From Longibacter salinarum (GTDB lineage Bacteria; Bacteroidota; Rhodothermia; Rhodothermales; Salinibacteraceae): 64,000 nucleotides of DNA. The stretch is from assembly GCF_002554795.1 (NCBI RefSeq), contig NZ_PDEQ01000001.1, positions 558,001-622,000 on the forward strand, given 5' to 3'. How positions within the stretch are numbered: position 1 is the first letter of the stretch; the number at the start of each line of letters is the position of its first letter. The position numbers and the translations under genes are program-made. Positions 11,227 to 17,812 of the stretch are shown one piece after another. The notes beneath the pieces were generated by a model, which saw only the letters and a program-made list of their open reading frames with translations, was not told where the DNA came from and searched no databases.

Positions 11227-11302
11227 AGGCCCGTAGCTCAACTGGTAGAGCAACGGACTCTTAATCCGTGGGTTGGGGGTTCGAGTCCCCCCGGGCCTAC
11301 CA
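11227..11302 (+). tRNA. tRNA-Lys (anticodon CUU)
   Basis: A 76-base cloverleaf. The acceptor stem pairs AGGCCCG with CGGGCCT, followed by A and an encoded CCA. The D arm is GCTC/GAGC, the anticodon stem ACGGA/TCCGT holds loop CTCTTAA (anticodon CTT), and the T arm is a five-base G/C stem around TTCGAGT. The 3' 52 bases plus one base beyond are repeated at 17760-17812, showing that this gene is the attachment site of an integrated element. The gene itself is intact. Confidence 0.96.
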
Positions 11303-11303
11303 C
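11251..11303. repeat. attL, 53-bp direct repeat in tRNA-Lys
   Basis: From CAACGG in the anticodon stem to CCAC just past the encoded CCA, identical to 17760-17812. Integration at the 3' end of a tRNA gene that rebuilds the gene is the usual mode for tyrosine integrases. Confidence 0.93.
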
Positions 11304-11360: not shown

Positions 11361-11668
11361 TATGTCCGATGCCGGCATCTCAGCCGGTATGCGGGAGAGC
11401 GAATGATTATCCGCTCTCCCTCTCCTCGTGCTGTATCCGCGGCGACTGTACACAAAATTGTACACAGTGCAGATGAGATAGCGGGTTGGTGTGGCTAAAG
11501 ACACAACGCGGAGACTGAAAGTGTTTCCACTATTTGCGCCTCGGCGGATGGTCTAAATCATGACGGGGGTGGGGCGATAATACGCTGTCCCCACCGCTCT
11601 AATACAAAGCAATCCCTTCTCATTTTGTAGAGATCGACTCAAGGTCGGTGATGGGAAACTGAAAACAG
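11361..11668. other. Left-end non-coding part of the element
   Basis: No gene recognised. It holds one copy of an 18-base repeat (11451-11468) shared with the right end and is AT-rich towards the Mrr gene. Open frames starting in the tRNA are artefacts. Confidence 0.5.
11451..11468 (+). repeat. 18-bp end repeat, left copy
   Basis: CACAAAATTGTACACAGT, identical to 17689-17706 and in the same orientation. Preceded here by TGTA, giving two TGTACA palindromes. It lies 148 bases inside attL. Probably an integrase arm-type or accessory-protein site (inference). Confidence 0.55.
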
Positions 11669-13300
11669 CTAGTCTCTAACTTCTCTCGCTTCCTCCAAGT
11701 TGAGCCGTGCGTTGTAACCATGCTTGCCGAGCAGGCTCATGAGATTACCCCCGTTCAAAAGTTGGAGAGGCTTATCTTTGGCGAATTTGTATGCGTCGGG
11801 TCCATAGTCACTAGTGGTGACGAGGATGCCTTTATTCGCACCTTCGTTCATGACGGTCCCGTACAGATCGCGTACGGCAGAGACCCCTACTGTTCTCGTG
11901 TATCGCTTGGCCTGTATTACAACCTTCCCTCCACGGATTGGATCAGGATCGATGGCCACGGCGTCTATTCCACCGTCTCTGCTCGCTTGCGTAACATTGA
12001 CCTCTCCTCCATTGGCTGAGAATTCCATCTCGAATAACTCTCTGATCAAGTGTTCAAAGTCTTCCCAATCCATAGAGGCGACATTTTCCCCATCATCCAT
12101 GTTCTCACCGATACGTCTAGAATCTGCGAACCTTGAATCGGATGTATCAACTTGAGCAATTGGGGTAACCGGAGCAACATCTATTAACTTGGATGCAGCA
12201 ACTCCTTTCAGACTCCGAAAACAGGCTTTGGCATCCACATGCTCCAAATTCAACGCGCTAACTTCTTCTCGTGATACCTGCAGAGAGAGTATACAAACGG
12301 TTTCCTCGTGACCGGTTGAGGCATTAATTTGATCTACTACCCCATTAAGAACGACGTTCTCGATGTTGTTGGGATAGTCTAGAGTGAATATCGCATCCAC
12401 GGTCCTCAGTGCCAACTGATACGGCAACGGCTCGTAAAACCGCTCGAAGTTTCGCTTGCTGAAAGCCTTGCTTTTAAATACATCTCTCGACTTTACATAA
12501 TTTATCTCTTCTCTGTTTATCAGATCATTTGGGCTTGGCATAAAATAGTCCAATATGAGCGTCTTAGAGCCACTGTCAAAGCTAGACGACCTAATCCCAC
12601 CAAAAGCCTCGGGGATTATACTGTCAATTTTATATATCGGTGAACTCAGAACTGTATTAATCACCTCGGCTACAGCGTCGCCCTCACCGGTTTCGTATTG
12701 TTCACGTATAGACCTCAGACGTTCTTCAGACTGACGCTTTTTACGTTCAATCTGCTTCTTTTGCTCAAGCCAATCTGACAATTCTTCTTCGTACGTTTCT
12801 TTCGCCCACCTATTCTTAAATTCTATCTCTTCTTTCTCGGCCTTCCAATTGCCCACGGCAATCTGATACCGATCCTTCATTTCGCGCCACTTTCTTTCAG
12901 CACGAGACTTAAATAGTTTATCTAATAGTGTAATACGAGGTTCATATTCTGACTTCGAAGGCTTCTCCGGTATTTCCTCGTAGGATGGCTTCTCAGGTTT
13001 CGGCGGGAGCTTCCCTGTTTCGGCCTTAAAGCCGCTCCAATCTATCGATAGCTGCGTTCGAACCCCTCGTGAGAGCAAGTTCCGTATTCCATCGATATAG
13101 AAATTCTGCAGAACGCGGTTGGCATCCGTAGCTAAGTCATTACGAAGGTTCTTTTGGTCGCTCTTGTTAAGGTTACCAAACGCTCCACTATGCACACGAT
13201 TATCAAAAAATCGTTCAGCGACTCCACTTAGTTCCTTATCTATATCATCAGCAAGAACATTTACATGAAACCGCTCAGCCTTGAGATATAACTGTGCCAT
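11669..13300 (-). CDS. Mrr-type restriction endonuclease with long N-terminal region
   Basis: ATG at 13300, seven bases after GGTGA, gives 543 residues; a GTG at 13309 is also possible. Residues about 120-205 are strongly charged and probably coiled coil. A middle region of unknown fold follows. The C-terminal 130 residues form an Mrr_cat nuclease domain (PD-(D/E)xK), starting at WEDFEHLIRELFEMEF. Its catalytic residues are D446 in SRDGGIDAV and Q463/K465 in VVIQAKRY. Mrr enzymes cut modified DNA, and this is probably defensive cargo of the element. No methylase is adjacent, which fits a modification-dependent nuclease. The gene is clearly richer in A+T than its neighbours, suggesting a separate origin. 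What the N-terminal part recognises is unknown. Confidence 0.75.
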   Translation of the reverse strand: MAQLYLKAERFHVNVLADDIDKELSGVAERFFDNRVHSGAFGNLNKSDQKNLRNDLATDANRVLQNFYIDGIRNLLSRGVRTQLSIDWSGFKAETGKLPPKPEKPSYEEIPEKPSKSEYEPRITLLDKLFKSRAERKWREMKDRYQIAVGNWKAEKEEIEFKNRWAKETYEEELSDWLEQKKQIERKKRQSEERLRSIREQYETGEGDAVAEVINTVLSSPIYKIDSIIPEAFGGIRSSSFDSGSKTLILDYFMPSPNDLINREEINYVKSRDVFKSKAFSKRNFERFYEPLPYQLALRTVDAIFTLDYPNNIENVVLNGVVDQINASTGHEETVCILSLQVSREEVSALNLEHVDAKACFRSLKGVAASKLIDVAPVTPIAQVDTSDSRFADSRRIGENMDDGENVASMDWEDFEHLIRELFEMEFSANGGEVNVTQASRDGGIDAVAIDPDPIRGGKVVIQAKRYTRTVGVSAVRDLYGTVMNEGANKGILVTTSDYGPDAYKFAKDKPLQLLNGGNLMSLLGKHGYNARLNLEEAREVRD

Positions 13301-13433
13301 ATTAGTCACCTATCGTTCGCATTTTGAAGCATCTGCTCCAAACATAAATTAAACGCCGTACGAACACAACGCTGCAGCCACGTCATGCCCCCTATTTTCC
13401 TGAATGAAGGAGCATACGAACAAATTGACCGAA

Positions 13434-15425
13434 TCAGACAGGAGTGTATTCGACATCCAAGCGGGTTTGAATGTCGTATTTATCGGCATGGTCCCTAACA
13501 AGGGAAGTTGCATGATTGGCGTACGTCTCGACCTGCTGCTCATACCGCACCCAAAGGATAACTTCATCGTACTTGTAGAGCATGACACGCCAACGATCCT
13601 CCCCGTCGCGCTGCCTCTCTTCGATTGCCGCCTCGAACACCGGCCACATCGTCTTCACCTCCACGCTCTGCACGATGTACGACAAAAGTGATCGTGCCGC
13701 CTTGTCCGTGATCTCTCCCCTTTTGGCCTTGCTGATTTCCGGCTGCTCACCGCTCAGTTCGCTATCATCCGCATCCACAAATGTATTTCGGTCGAGCACC
13801 CGCCCGAATGCATCGGTCGTGTAGTCCCCGTCTCGCTCGTGTTGCTTAATCTGTTCATATGCCTCCTCACGAGCGGTTAAGACCTCTTCTATCACAGGGT
13901 GGTCAAGTAGACCGTTGACTTTCTCCCGGTCCGGATAGTCGTACCGAGTCCGCTCAGCGATCTCCTTGCTCGCGTTGTGCATGATTGTATTCTCGGATGC
14001 GCCGTACACGGCAGAGTACGTTCCACGCTTGACGGCATATTCCTCGGCTTCGCCGGCCTGCATGTCAAGGGCCTCCCTCATCGACTCCCACATATCGAAG
14101 TCTTCGGAATCGTCGAGATGAGAGGCAAGGGCCTGCGACGTAGTTGACATATCTACGTCATACTCTCCCTCGGCCACTCGGGCAAACATAGCGAGTTGGG
14201 CCTTGGAAAGGTCAAGCGCGACGTGCCGATCTCCGAGCATCGGCGGAATTGCTTTCGAGTCCACGCCGACGAGATGATTCGCCCCTACCGGCGTCGGGCG
14301 AGGCGTGCGGTTGCCGGCCTGATACAGCATGAACGGCATGTCTTGAAAGCGCCGGAGGTTCGTGATCGACTGCCGAATGCCTTTATTGTAGACCTCTGAA
14401 CCTCGCTCTGCGGCCTCCATGAGAGCATCCACGCCGTTCTGCACGTTGTGAGCGAGTTCGGTATATACATCCCGACCGGGAGACCGCGCATCCCGCGTGA
14501 GATTGTTGAGATACTTGATGATACGCTGACTCTCACCAGGAGGAGTCACTTCGGCGTCGTCGGCCCTTCTTCGCTTCCCGTCAAGTTTCTCGAAACAGTC
14601 TTGTCGGAAATCGACCTTGGTTGGTCTCGACACGTCCCCTTTCATGAATAGGACGCTCTTCTTTCCCTGCCTGTCAAGAAAGAACGACGTTGCTTCATCC
14701 ATAATCTCCTCCGGAGTGCCGTGATTCGTGATACGCCGGCAATGTCCATCAGCGTAGTCGCTCCACTCCAACTTGCTATCAACTAACGCGCGGTATGTCC
14801 AAAGGAGCAAGAGGGCCTGCGTTTGGTCTCCGCTTTTCTGCGGCCTCAATCCAAACGCACCTCGAATTGAGTCCCTCGGTACGGGTATATAGTCCTTATC
14901 AGCGTTTTTCTCATCTCGCTTCCGGTGTATGATGAGTTGCGCCATTCCTCGAAGCCCGTCGTGTTCTGCGAGAATCGGCCGCCATTTCTCCACGAGGTCA
15001 ACTTCGTGTGCACTCACCCGGATGAATCGAAAGTCCATCGCTCCTTCGGGTCGCGAGAATGACCGATTGATGACCTTTAGGATCGTGCTAGCAGTTGGAC
15101 TGACCGCTTCTCCCGGATTGGCCGGATCTCCGGCTTCTATCTTTGTTAACTGCTGCCTGAGGTCCCAAACCACCGGATGAGGCTCCAAATCGGCCTTCTG
15201 CGGCTGCTTAGGCAGTTCATAGCCGTCGCTCCAATTCCACCCCCCGGAAGGAGGTACACACGTATGGGCGCCCGTTCCGTCTCCTCCCGGTGTCCCTGTC
15301 TCCCGTGTCCCGTCCCTGTCCGGCCTCTCGTCCCGGTCCGTGTCCGTTTCAATCCGGTCGAGGGTGTCCCGTTCGTCGTTCTGCTCGGCCTCCTCGTTTA
15401 AATCTGCGGGGTGGTTTCCGGACAT
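13434..15425 (-). CDS. Divergent family-A DNA polymerase-like protein
   Basis: A 663-residue protein whose C-terminal 270 residues carry the family-A polymerase motifs in order. Motif A is ALDLSKAQLAMFARVA (catalytic D405). Motif B is VKRGTYSAVYGAS, where K466, Y470, Y474 and G475 have exactly the spacing of K758, F762, Y766 and G767 of E. coli Pol I. The helix RSLLSYIVQSVEVKTMW (Q586) matches the Pol I Q849 segment. Motif C is YKYDEV (D620, E621). D620 lies 34 residues after Q586, against 33 in Pol I. The first 60 residues are acidic and disordered, and residues 80-380 are unrecognised; no 3'-5' exonuclease motifs were seen. The Pol I R754 position is E462 and the motif C His is Tyr. It is probably the element's replicase; activity is unproven. 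Confidence 0.65.
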   Translation of the reverse strand: MSGNHPADLNEEAEQNDERDTLDRIETDTDRDERPDRDGTRETGTPGGDGTGAHTCVPPSGGWNWSDGYELPKQPQKADLEPHPVVWDLRQQLTKIEAGDPANPGEAVSPTASTILKVINRSFSRPEGAMDFRFIRVSAHEVDLVEKWRPILAEHDGLRGMAQLIIHRKRDEKNADKDYIPVPRDSIRGAFGLRPQKSGDQTQALLLLWTYRALVDSKLEWSDYADGHCRRITNHGTPEEIMDEATSFFLDRQGKKSVLFMKGDVSRPTKVDFRQDCFEKLDGKRRRADDAEVTPPGESQRIIKYLNNLTRDARSPGRDVYTELAHNVQNGVDALMEAAERGSEVYNKGIRQSITNLRRFQDMPFMLYQAGNRTPRPTPVGANHLVGVDSKAIPPMLGDRHVALDLSKAQLAMFARVAEGEYDVDMSTTSQALASHLDDSEDFDMWESMREALDMQAGEAEEYAVKRGTYSAVYGASENTIMHNASKEIAERTRYDYPDREKVNGLLDHPVIEEVLTAREEAYEQIKQHERDGDYTTDAFGRVLDRNTFVDADDSELSGEQPEISKAKRGEITDKAARSLLSYIVQSVEVKTMWPVFEAAIEERQRDGEDRWRVMLYKYDEVILWVRYEQQVETYANHATSLVRDHADKYDIQTRLDVEYTPV

Positions 15426-15535: not shown

Positions 15536-15901
15536 TCAGCCGTTAAGCCGGCATATTCGGCGCCGCATGTTCGACCGGCTGAACACGAAGCGTTTCGTAT
15601 TGCCGGTCGCTTCCTCGGGCTTAGGCAACATCGCAGACTTGCCGCACATGGACCGCACGCACACAGTTCGATCAGTGACGGTTTTATGCGTTCGTTTCTT
15701 TAAGCCGCCCCCCCGTGCCCTCGACCGGGCGAGTTGAATAACCGATGGATCGGCTACTAATCCAGGAGACGTGTAGGTGCCACCGACGCGTACGACAGCG
15801 GGACCGAAATTTGGCAACGCAGAGCGAAGGCACCGGCGACGTCCCAACCATCGCCGGCCCACCTGCGCCCGCGTGCTCGGATTATATCCTTGCCTGCTCA
15901 A
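15536..15901 (-). CDS. Possible small basic protein with cysteines (doubtful)
   Basis: A 121-codon frame from a TTG codon, 20 bases overlapping the end of the upstream small gene. The product is very Arg-rich. Its last 45 residues have CVRSMCGK and then RFVFSRSNMRRRICR, vaguely like the small phage and plasmid zinc-ribbon proteins of the form CxxCG...FCS..CR, but the cysteine spacing is wrong and one position is Val. There is no good start codon. It may be a real element gene or an accidental frame. The rest of the 15426-15881 interval shows nothing else coding. Confidence 0.25.
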   Translation of the reverse strand: MSRQGYNPSTRAQVGRRWLGRRRCLRSALPNFGPAVVRVGGTYTSPGLVADPSVIQLARSRARGGGLKKRTHKTVTDRTVCVRSMCGKSAMLPKPEEATGNTKRFVFSRSNMRRRICRLNG

Positions 15902-16166
15902 AAAAGTATGCCTCGACTACAACCGTACCGTCATCCTCGACGCGAAATGCCATTTCGGCATTCTCAACTCGTGCGAGCCAAACCCTTGACCGGAGGTAGT
16001 ACGGCGTATCCGCCGTCAAAGATTTTGCGTAGAATGAAGCACGCTCGTGCAGCTGAGCGACGACAGCGGCAGTTTGACTGTCTTCCATTGCTTCTTTGTA
16101 GCTGATTGCCGCATCACGTCGGATGCGAATGTTGCACTTGTCCCCTAAGTCGGGTATGCTATTCAT
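15882..16166 (-). CDS. Small element protein, possibly RelE/ParE-like
   Basis: ATG at 16166 (MNSIPDLGDKCNIRIRRDAA) gives 94 residues; an upstream start at 16208 is less likely. An amphipathic helix (SQTAAVVAQLHERASFYAKS) is followed by two strands (RSRVWLARVENAEMAFRVED, then VVVEAYFFE). The order helix then R-rich strands ending in a DDG turn is similar to RelE/ParE-type toxins, but the basic catalytic tail is missing and no antitoxin partner is next to it. It might also be an excisionase or regulator for the element. I do not recognise it with confidence. Confidence 0.45.
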   Translation of the reverse strand: MNSIPDLGDKCNIRIRRDAAISYKEAMEDSQTAAVVAQLHERASFYAKSLTADTPYYLRSRVWLARVENAEMAFRVEDDGTVVVEAYFFEQARI

Positions 16167-16234
16167 GACGAGTCTGTGAAGGCTTGTTGTGCTGCAACGG
16201 CTTACCACGCCGGCAGCAGAAAATGTGAAGACAC

Positions 16235-16311: not shown

Positions 16312-16487
16312 CCGTTATGCAAATCTGTTTATCCACAATCTCCTAACGTCAAGGGCTTCCGCGATCTGCATAACGGAAATACGTTTAGCGTCCGAAATTG
16401 GGGTATCGGCGAATATGGATGAGACGAAAGATCCGTTATTGTTCAAGCCCGTCAGTTTCGGCATTATCACTCACAACTTTGTCCACA
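16312..16487. other. Putative replication origin of the element
   Basis: An AT-rich non-coding stretch with a perfect DnaA-box sequence TTATCCACA (16329-16337) and a near match TTGTCCACA (16479-16487). CCGTTATGCAAATC at 16312-16325 is repeated inverted as GATCTGCATAACGG at 16363-16376 (13 of 14 bases), and CCGTTATTG occurs again near 16432. Such iterons with DnaA boxes mark origins of plasmids and replicating integrative elements. It lies between the integrase and the small ORFs, in the same element as a polymerase-like gene. The function is inferred; the open frames across it look spurious. Confidence 0.45.
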
Positions 16488-16547: not shown

Positions 16548-17654
16548 TTAACTCATCGCCTGCTCCATCTCGTCTCGCAGCCGATTGCGCGACACATTGA
16601 CGTACTTTAGTGCCGTCGATAGATCCGCGTGGCGCATTGCTTCCTTAATCATGTGTGCGCTCATGCCGGCGTCAGCAAGCGCCGTAGCGAACCCTGCCCG
16701 GAGATCATGAAACGTGAGGTTACGTTCTATGCCGGCCTCACGTTGCGCTTTGCAGAACCGCTTAGACGCACGGTGACCGAACGACTTAGGGTTGCGATCA
16801 TGGGTGGGTCCGTTTGGCGTCCTAAAGACATATGAACGGGGACCTTGCCCCTGCGGAGCGTTGTCGAGAACCGATTTCGCCTTTGAAATGAGGGGAATGG
16901 TCTGCTCCCGGTTATTCTTCTGCCTCGTAATCCGAATCAGTCCACGGTCGAGGTCAATGTCTCGCCACCTGAGCCGACCAATTTCCGTCGCACGCATTCC
17001 CGTGTAGAAGGCCCACCGGAATACAGGGATCGTCCAAATCAGCTGCCCCGGCCGGCATTGATCCCGTTTGCGCAATTCCCGGTATTCCCGCCCTACCTCC
17101 CCTACGATCAACTCCAAGTCGTCCGGCCGCACGGGAGTCGGCAGTTTATCGGATTTTCGTGGCGCATCAACGTCTTCGATCACGTCGCAGTCCGCCCATG
17201 CAAGGACCGCGCGGACGTGACGCCACCGTTTGTGTCGGGTGGCTTGTGATACCGTAGCGTCGTGGCAGTAGTCTTGGACTATCGCCGGCGAGAGATCCGT
17301 CAGATCAACGTCTGAGCCGATTCGCTCGACGAGGCGCCGCCATACCCCTTCGTATGTGTCGATTGTCCTCTCAGAGCAGCCTTGCGCCTCCTTCGCGTCA
17401 ATGAACGCAGAAATGACTGTCTTCACTGAGTGAGTGCGTGGGCCGGCACTTTCATAGTTGAACGGGTCGGATTTGCTTCCTTCCGCCCACGGATCAAAGC
17501 CCCCTTGCTCATACGCGTCCTCCAACTCAACGAGTTTGCGGCGTGCGTTTCGCTTTTTCGAGGTCTTGAGCGATAGGCGCTTGCGTGACGGGGATTTGTT
17601 GCTGTCGTAGAACTGAGCGTAGTAGCGGCCGGAGCGTTCGTAGATCGAAGCCAT
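16548..17654 (-). CDS. int: Tyrosine recombinase (integrase) of the element
   Basis: ATG at 17654 (MASIYERSGRYYAQFYD) gives 368 residues; a longer frame to 17693 would run into the end repeat. The N-terminal arm-binding region and the SAM-like core-binding domain (about 75-170) precede the catalytic domain. The full catalytic set is present: R221 (TGMRATE), K246 (RQKNNRE), H316 and R319 (FHDLRAG), H342 (MRHADLST) and nucleophile Y351 (ALKYVNV). The enzyme should therefore be active. It lies directly inside attR and most likely acts on the 53-bp tRNA-Lys core. An 18-base repeat shared with the left end lies in its upstream region and could couple DNA binding to int expression. No excisionase was recognised. 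Confidence 0.93.
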   Translation of the reverse strand: MASIYERSGRYYAQFYDSNKSPSRKRLSLKTSKKRNARRKLVELEDAYEQGGFDPWAEGSKSDPFNYESAGPRTHSVKTVISAFIDAKEAQGCSERTIDTYEGVWRRLVERIGSDVDLTDLSPAIVQDYCHDATVSQATRHKRWRHVRAVLAWADCDVIEDVDAPRKSDKLPTPVRPDDLELIVGEVGREYRELRKRDQCRPGQLIWTIPVFRWAFYTGMRATEIGRLRWRDIDLDRGLIRITRQKNNREQTIPLISKAKSVLDNAPQGQGPRSYVFRTPNGPTHDRNPKSFGHRASKRFCKAQREAGIERNLTFHDLRAGFATALADAGMSAHMIKEAMRHADLSTALKYVNVSRNRLRDEMEQAMS

Positions 17655-17688
17655 AGTGCGGAATCGAGTCAGGTTGATTCCGCACTGC

Positions 17689-17706
17689 CACAAAATTGTA
17701 CACAGT
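17689..17706 (+). repeat. 18-bp end repeat, right copy
   Basis: CACAAAATTGTACACAGT, identical to 11451-11468, located 54 bases inside attR and 35 bases upstream of the int start. Likely integrase arm site or int operator (inference). Confidence 0.55.
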
Positions 17707-17759: not shown

Positions 17760-17812
17760 CAACGGACTCTTAATCCGTGGGTTGGGGGTTCGAGTCCCCC
17801 CGGGCCTACCAC
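17760..17812. repeat. attR, partial tRNA-Lys copy
   Basis: Fifty-three bases identical to 11251-11303, comprising the anticodon arm from its stem, the variable loop, T arm and 3' acceptor strand with CCA. The D arm and 5' acceptor strand are absent, so it is not a functional tRNA gene. Confidence 0.93.

Follow-up and report, generated by a model that had tools for sequence, protein, structure and literature searches.

A predicted A-family polymerase beside the TV-Pols on a tRNA-Lys integrative element of Longibacter salinarum

Introduction

TV-Pols are A-family polymerases of transposons and viruses that are devoid of nuclease domains (Iyer, Abhiman, Aravind 2008, PMC2579912). Their genes lie beside those of integrases, resolvases, D5 helicases and restriction-modification (R-M) enzymes, one of them was reported in phage Ma-LMM01, and the proteins were predicted to be primase-polymerases (PMC2579912). 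CcPol of SCCmec, which is assigned to the TV-Pols and was the only enzyme so assigned to have been tested biochemically as of PMC7581432, primes de novo when bound to MP (PMC7581432), and Pol-SSB pairs related to CcPol-MP are present in Bacillota (PMC10061031). Elements with CcPol-MP or PolA-SSB encode an OB-fold SSB partner, whose gene lies between those of the polymerase and the helicase (COG3378 or DUF927), and mostly use serine recombinases (PMC7581432, PMC10061031). In pipolins, the constant gene is a single polymerase, of the B family and primer-independent; these elements carry a tyrosine recombinase and R-M cargo, insert into tRNA genes, end in direct repeats and also have plasmid forms (PMC7385651).

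Here, we analysed a window of 64,000 nucleotides of Longibacter salinarum (contig NZ_PDEQ01000001.1, positions 558,001 to 622,000), in which an initial annotation, made from the sequence letters, had proposed that a 663-residue protein (P0001) of an integrative element carries family-A polymerase motifs.

Results

The integrative element in tRNA-Lys

The polymerase gene is located within 6,509 bp of DNA bounded by two exact 53-bp repeats, the left of which is the 3' part of a tRNA-Lys gene (Table 1). In the same-genus genome G504, the flank on the NAD-synthase side runs into the tRNA, which is followed by 67 bases that match the sequence beyond attR, with no element in between, as in an empty site. 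The element contains the integrase, the polymerase, a Mrr-type methyl-directed nuclease and small ORFs only, one of which, of 108 aa, gave no family match in Pfam, PHROG, NCBIfam or PADLOC. There is no room for a helicase gene in the 6,509 bp, no Pol-SSB-helicase operon is present and no MP-like SSB partner was identified. The element differs from those of CcPol-MP in having a tyrosine integrase and no helicase.

Table 1. Features of the element and of its polymerase gene (window positions)
Feature	Position	Strand	Basis
tRNA-Lys(CTT), integration target; 3' part is attL	11227..11302	+	ARAGORN
attL, exact 53-bp direct repeat	11251..11303	+	repeat search
18-bp exact repeat CACAAAATTGTACACAGT, candidate integrase arm site	11451..11468	.	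repeat search
Mrr-type methyl-directed (type IV) restriction endonuclease, defence cargo	11669..13309	-	Pfam Mrr_cat 1.5e-31; PADLOC mREase_IV 5.4e-53
Predicted A-family polymerase beside TV-Pol group, 663 aa	13434..15425	-	homologue alignment, Foldseek, profile, hhalign, tree
Motif C Y619-D620-E621 (Pol I H881-D882-E883; family consensus HDG)	13563..13571	-	alignment
Q586 (Pol I Q849)	13668..13670	-	kept in 19/20
Motif B, residues 462-475 (E462, K466, Y470, Y474, G475)	14001..14042	-	alignment
D405, motif A catalytic Asp (Pol I D705); Q410 at E710 position	14211..14213	-	alignment
R376, T-x-R beta-hairpin Arg (Pol I R668)	14298..14300	-	20/20; in register with TGRLSS
Putative 108-aa ORF between polymerase and integrase	15882..16208	-	ORF
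AT-rich stretch with DnaA-box-like TTATCCACA (16329) and TTGTCCACA (16479), weak candidate origin	16329..16487	+	DNA motif search
Tyrosine integrase	16548..17693	-	Pfam Phage_integrase 8.5e-28
Second copy of the 18-bp repeat, near the other element end	17689..17706	.	repeat search
attR, exact 53-bp direct repeat	17760..17812	+	repeat search; sequence beyond contiguous with tRNA-Lys in G504

Evidence for a Pol I-type fold

Searched alone, the 663-aa protein had no match in Pfam, PHROG, NCBIfam, PADLOC or PDB sequences, and single-sequence searches of Pfam, PHROGs, PDB, plasmids, phages and viral contigs gave nothing. It falls below the Pfam DNA_pol_A cut-off, at which only the chromosomal Pol I was found in this genome; the host retains its own Pol I elsewhere. 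The relatives were obtained by tblastn against genomes and then by profiles. Using an 18-member family profile against PDB chains, E. coli Pol I came first (E = 5.4e-7); the alignment keeps T-x-R, motif A, motif B, the G-R turn, Q849 and motif C in register. In hhalign comparisons, the family matched Pol I at 93.8% (E = 1.8e-7) and T7 DNA polymerase at 83.9%.

AlphaFold models of two members were built from five-sequence alignments. The model of a 484-aa homologue from Labilithrix reached a mean pLDDT of 72.5, with 80-97 over most of the length of the polymerase core, and that of the window protein a mean of 58.4, i.e. modest confidence. The outcome that the initial annotation had named as refuting its proposal, a model without the right-hand fold, did not occur: the best 50 listed PDB matches of each model in Foldseek were Pol I, Klenow, Taq, Bst or apicoplast A-family polymerases, at a probability of 1.00, and the top E values were 3e-8 and 5e-8. 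The TM-scores were 0.3-0.46 and the rmsd large, because whole chains were compared and the domains are poorly placed; the fold class is clear from the models, the details of the fold are not. Profiles and models together confirm the assignment of the 663-aa protein as a divergent A-family (Pol I-type) polymerase, and profile, Foldseek, att repeats and integrase bear out that such an enzyme sits on an integrative element.

Active-site residues of the family

Conservation was counted in an alignment of 20 homologues, one of which (the L041 copy) ends before motif C. All the residues named in the initial annotation (D405, E462, K466, Y470, Y474, G475, Q586 and Y619-D620-E621) are at the positions it gave, and their order is more than chance, since the active site is kept across the 20 homologues. 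Seven residues (D405, R376, Y368, W446, G475, R519 and E589) do not vary, K466, Y470 and Q586 are each kept in 19 of 20, and D620 is present in all 19 homologues that reach motif C; K466 and Q586 are both missing from the alignment of one member, L035:723-2996. The family shares with Pol I (Klenow) the fold, the order of the motifs and the R668, D705, K758, Y766, Q849 and D882 positions, whereas E710 and F762 are replaced, E883 is Gly in most members and no exonuclease domains are seen.

At the position of Phe762, Tyr is present in 19 of the 20 members. Two other deviations, read correctly in the window protein, need qualifying for the family. The Glu at the Arg754 position (E462) is peculiar to this protein, which has ExxxK in the fingers where 18 of the 20 members have Lys and thus KxxxK. 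In motif C, Y-D-E is shared only with the closest relative, and the family pattern is [H/Y/S]-D-G; D-G is found in 17 members, and D-E is confined to the window protein and L038. A purified phage enzyme that has Ser in place of this Gly or Glu is active (PMC9324360), and D-G is therefore no argument against activity.

Two features had escaped the initial annotation, namely the T-x-R beta-hairpin motif with the invariant R376, and the residue five positions after D405, at the Glu710 position, which is Gln or His in all 20 members. Glu710 of Pol I acts as a steric block against ribonucleotides (PMC9324360), and the substitution predicts a relaxed discrimination of the sugar in this family.

The loss of Glu710 and the D-G rather than D-E of motif C would also suit a single-subunit RNA polymerase of the T7 type. 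We consider this reading hardly credible, since hhalign of the family to T7 RNA polymerase gave 1.0%, no better than controls (0.4% for an integrase), the best listed PDB folds are all Pol I-type DNA polymerases, and the equivalents of R668, Y/F766 and Q849 are kept.

The polymerase gene differs from that of a 57%-identical relative at 178, 123 and 352 first, second and third codon positions, respectively. The dN/dS ratio is not computable because synonymous sites are saturated; the differences nevertheless support purifying constraint on the gene.

No nuclease domain was detected in the window protein or in five members scanned individually, in agreement with the earlier reading that exonuclease motifs are lacking. 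Nuclease genes do adjoin the polymerase, as the Mrr gene in the window and, beside the L036 homologue, a DnaQ-like 3'-5' exonuclease gene (L036:9538-10212), which lies next to the polymerase gene in convergent orientation and whose product is possibly a separate proofreading partner. The enzyme could instead have an accessory role, in repairing DNA, filling gaps at integration junctions or bypassing lesions, and be dispensable for copying the element. The missing exonuclease domain, the separate exonuclease gene of L036 and a UmuD/UmuC pair on some of the same plasmids would fit such a role; UmuDC, however, is not conserved in the other contexts, the constant partners being integrase or ParA, and we regard the accessory role as quite unlikely.

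Kinship with TV-Pols

For comparison, we used a sample of six sequences only, whose TV-Pol label we infer. Its seed, MAP_030 of Ma-LMM01, was taken as a TV-Pol from its motifs, its transposase neighbour and its being the best, albeit weak, match of the family profile; the others were from Polaromonas plasmids, a second Microcystis phage and two Rhodothermales-order genomes. The family matched this sample in hhalign at 98.9% (E = 3.8e-17), a much stronger match than that to Pol I. A tree built on 250 columns placed the family in one clade (98/90) and the six TV-Pol-type sequences in another (94/92), and a 100/99 branch split both from Pol I and T7; the two are sister clades, not nested, in a tree whose details are unsafe given its long branches. 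The two TV-Pol-type genes of the same order (L102 and L103, in G242 and G239) belong to other families of that order and are distinct from the clade.

The family shares with TV-Pols a minimal A-family core with two catalytic Asp, thumb helices, the beta-hairpin Arg, here invariant, and a place on integrase elements with R-M neighbours. For the fingers motif, RxxxK in TV-Pols, 18 of 20 members have K-x3-K and the window protein ExxxK. TV-Pols have no nuclease domain fused or linked; none was detected in the members scanned, and nuclease genes adjoin the polymerase in the window and in L036. The sampled TV-Pols also resemble the family in having His at the position of Glu710 and H/Y-D-G as motif C, and differ at the F762 position, where they have Leu (Ile in L102) and the family Tyr. 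The D5 helicase of TV-Pol neighbourhoods is absent from the two smallest delimited elements of the family. With CcPol-MP, the family shares an A-family polymerase, integrative elements and defence cargo, and CcPol likewise lacks an exonuclease domain; CcPol, however, keeps E710 and F762 (PMC7581432), where the family has Gln/His and Tyr.

By sequence, the family is a separate, unannotated clade beside the sampled TV-Pols. Of the 'new polymerase subfamily on integrative elements' that had been suggested, the distinct clade stands; the novelty of its kind does not, as TV-Pol and CcPol-MP are known. We found no description of the clade or its active-site variant in the literature.

Homologues, replicons and cargo

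Using tblastn, four relatives were found in 394 genomes of the phylum, and a profile search of 245 genomes of the class gave members in 12. Further homologues were found in a Labilithrix (myxobacterial) MAG by a scan of genome contigs, with none in other Myxococcota among 284 genomes, and on plasmids of Synechococcus elongatus, Synechocystis and Deinococcus peraridilitoris. Weak profile matches in G313, G150, G730, G555, G575 and G771 were rejected, as their frames of 940-1140 aa resemble housekeeping Pol I. Members are few and scattered, a distribution expected of mobile DNA. Scans of IMG/VR with three queries gave no relative, so that, for that collection and at that sensitivity, a phage origin is not supported.

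The polymerase occurs together with an integrase gene in nine contexts and with ParA in five. Direct repeats delimit the elements of four homologues (L025, ~9.4 kb; L034, 14.7 kb; L040, 6.1 kb; L024, 14 kb), three of them in tRNA-Leu genes and one with a repeat that resembles a tRNA end; among all delimited elements, that of the window included, the two smallest lack a helicase gene. Much of the cargo resembles defence genes, with type I R-M genes in L026 and L031 (recognized from sequence and shared clusters, not by domain search) and PADLOC-type matches to AriAB (PARIS) in L040, a SIR2-Argonaute-type system in L037 and BREX BrxC in L039. Such genes on nearly every element (Mrr; PARIS-, SIR2-Argonaute- and BREX-like proteins) raise the question of a defence enzyme, whose untemplated or templated polymerization would block phage like that of Abi-type reverse transcriptases. 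Yet the cargo differs between elements, whereas the association of the polymerase with integrase or ParA is stable, and the polymerase itself has no PADLOC match, which makes a defensive function improbable.

Among the replicons, a 39,810-bp contig (G195:C2, with L031 and L032) behaves as a circle, the polymerase gene reading through the contig join; it carries ParA beside the polymerase gene and type I R-M genes recognized by eye. Two 24-kb S. elongatus plasmids have ParA, ParB and the polymerase gene in common and no annotated Rep. This shared backbone, together with the position beside ParA in several replicons, would be consistent with the polymerase being the Rep proper of the element, its N-terminal helical region recognizing the origin and the same protein initiating and copying. 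We judge this unlikely: a recognizable other initiator, CyRepA1, is encoded on L028, an RPA/TrfA-like Rep with ParA on the plasmid-like contig of L035 (G516:C173), and an HTH protein on the 24-kb plasmids is a candidate Rep; and no iterons were found at the window locus. As to the weak candidate origin of Table 1, DnaA-like boxes are no more numerous over the whole window than expected by chance. Considering the other Reps of L028 and L035, the polymerase is probably not the origin-recognizing initiator; a role in replication is likely, a universal one as initiator is not. We also compared the protein with CyRepX and rejected an identity, CyRepX being helicase-like (PMC10899382). The L035 contig contains two divergent copies of the polymerase gene, ~10 kb apart.

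Discussion

Computation supports the polymerase fold, the catalytic residues, the element ends, the empty site, the mobile context and the purifying constraint. With moderate confidence, we favour the reading that the protein is an active, exonuclease-free A-family DNA polymerase that replicates its own 6.5-kb tRNA-Lys element by priming, extension or both. The tyrosine integrase would insert the element into tRNA-Lys and excise it, presumably as a circle. On the single-stranded DNA of the excised element, or of related plasmids that are free replicons, the polymerase would make and/or extend primers, possibly with a relaxed choice of sugar, so that copying would need little help from host Pol I or DnaG. 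Opening of the DNA would fall to a host helicase, joined by a separate Rep or DnaA where there is one, and the element would then re-integrate at the tRNA. Against this reading bear the loss of the basic residue at the R754 position in the window copy (E462), the other initiators of the two plasmids L028 and L035, by which the protein is not the sole Rep everywhere, the failure to identify an MP-like SSB partner and the modest confidence of the model of the window protein.

The elements of the family share with pipolins the tyrosine recombinase, the tRNA insertion, the direct-repeat ends, the R-M cargo, one polymerase as constant gene and the plasmid forms, whereas the window polymerase is of the A family. 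We tentatively raise a bolder proposal, doubtful for now, in which these minimal tRNA-inserted elements would be a family-A counterpart of pipolins, with a polymerase that self-starts strands without an SSB partner or an element-borne helicase and, its Glu710 gate being lost, can begin with ribonucleotides.

The clade lacks the ribonucleotide-excluding residues that CcPol keeps, and it occurs on helicase-free elements as small as ~6 kb. It would offer a compact system for studying primer-free strand initiation by an A-family polymerase, and it raises the question of whether polymerases of families A and B were taken up independently by mobile elements to do the same job. Additionally, a set of proteins annotated only as hypothetical gains a name.

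Two chromosomal copies have particular surroundings. The polymerase gene in the tRNA-Leu element of a Salinibacter-type genome (G195) has just upstream of it a fragment of DNA polymerase III alpha (L034:4986-8426), which lacks the N-terminal part and contains an intein with a LAGLIDADG-like domain. The copy L033:10001-12115, on a chromosome of 3,551,823 bp (G147), has no integrase called nearby and lies near a tmRNA gene (12830-13196), a known target of islands.
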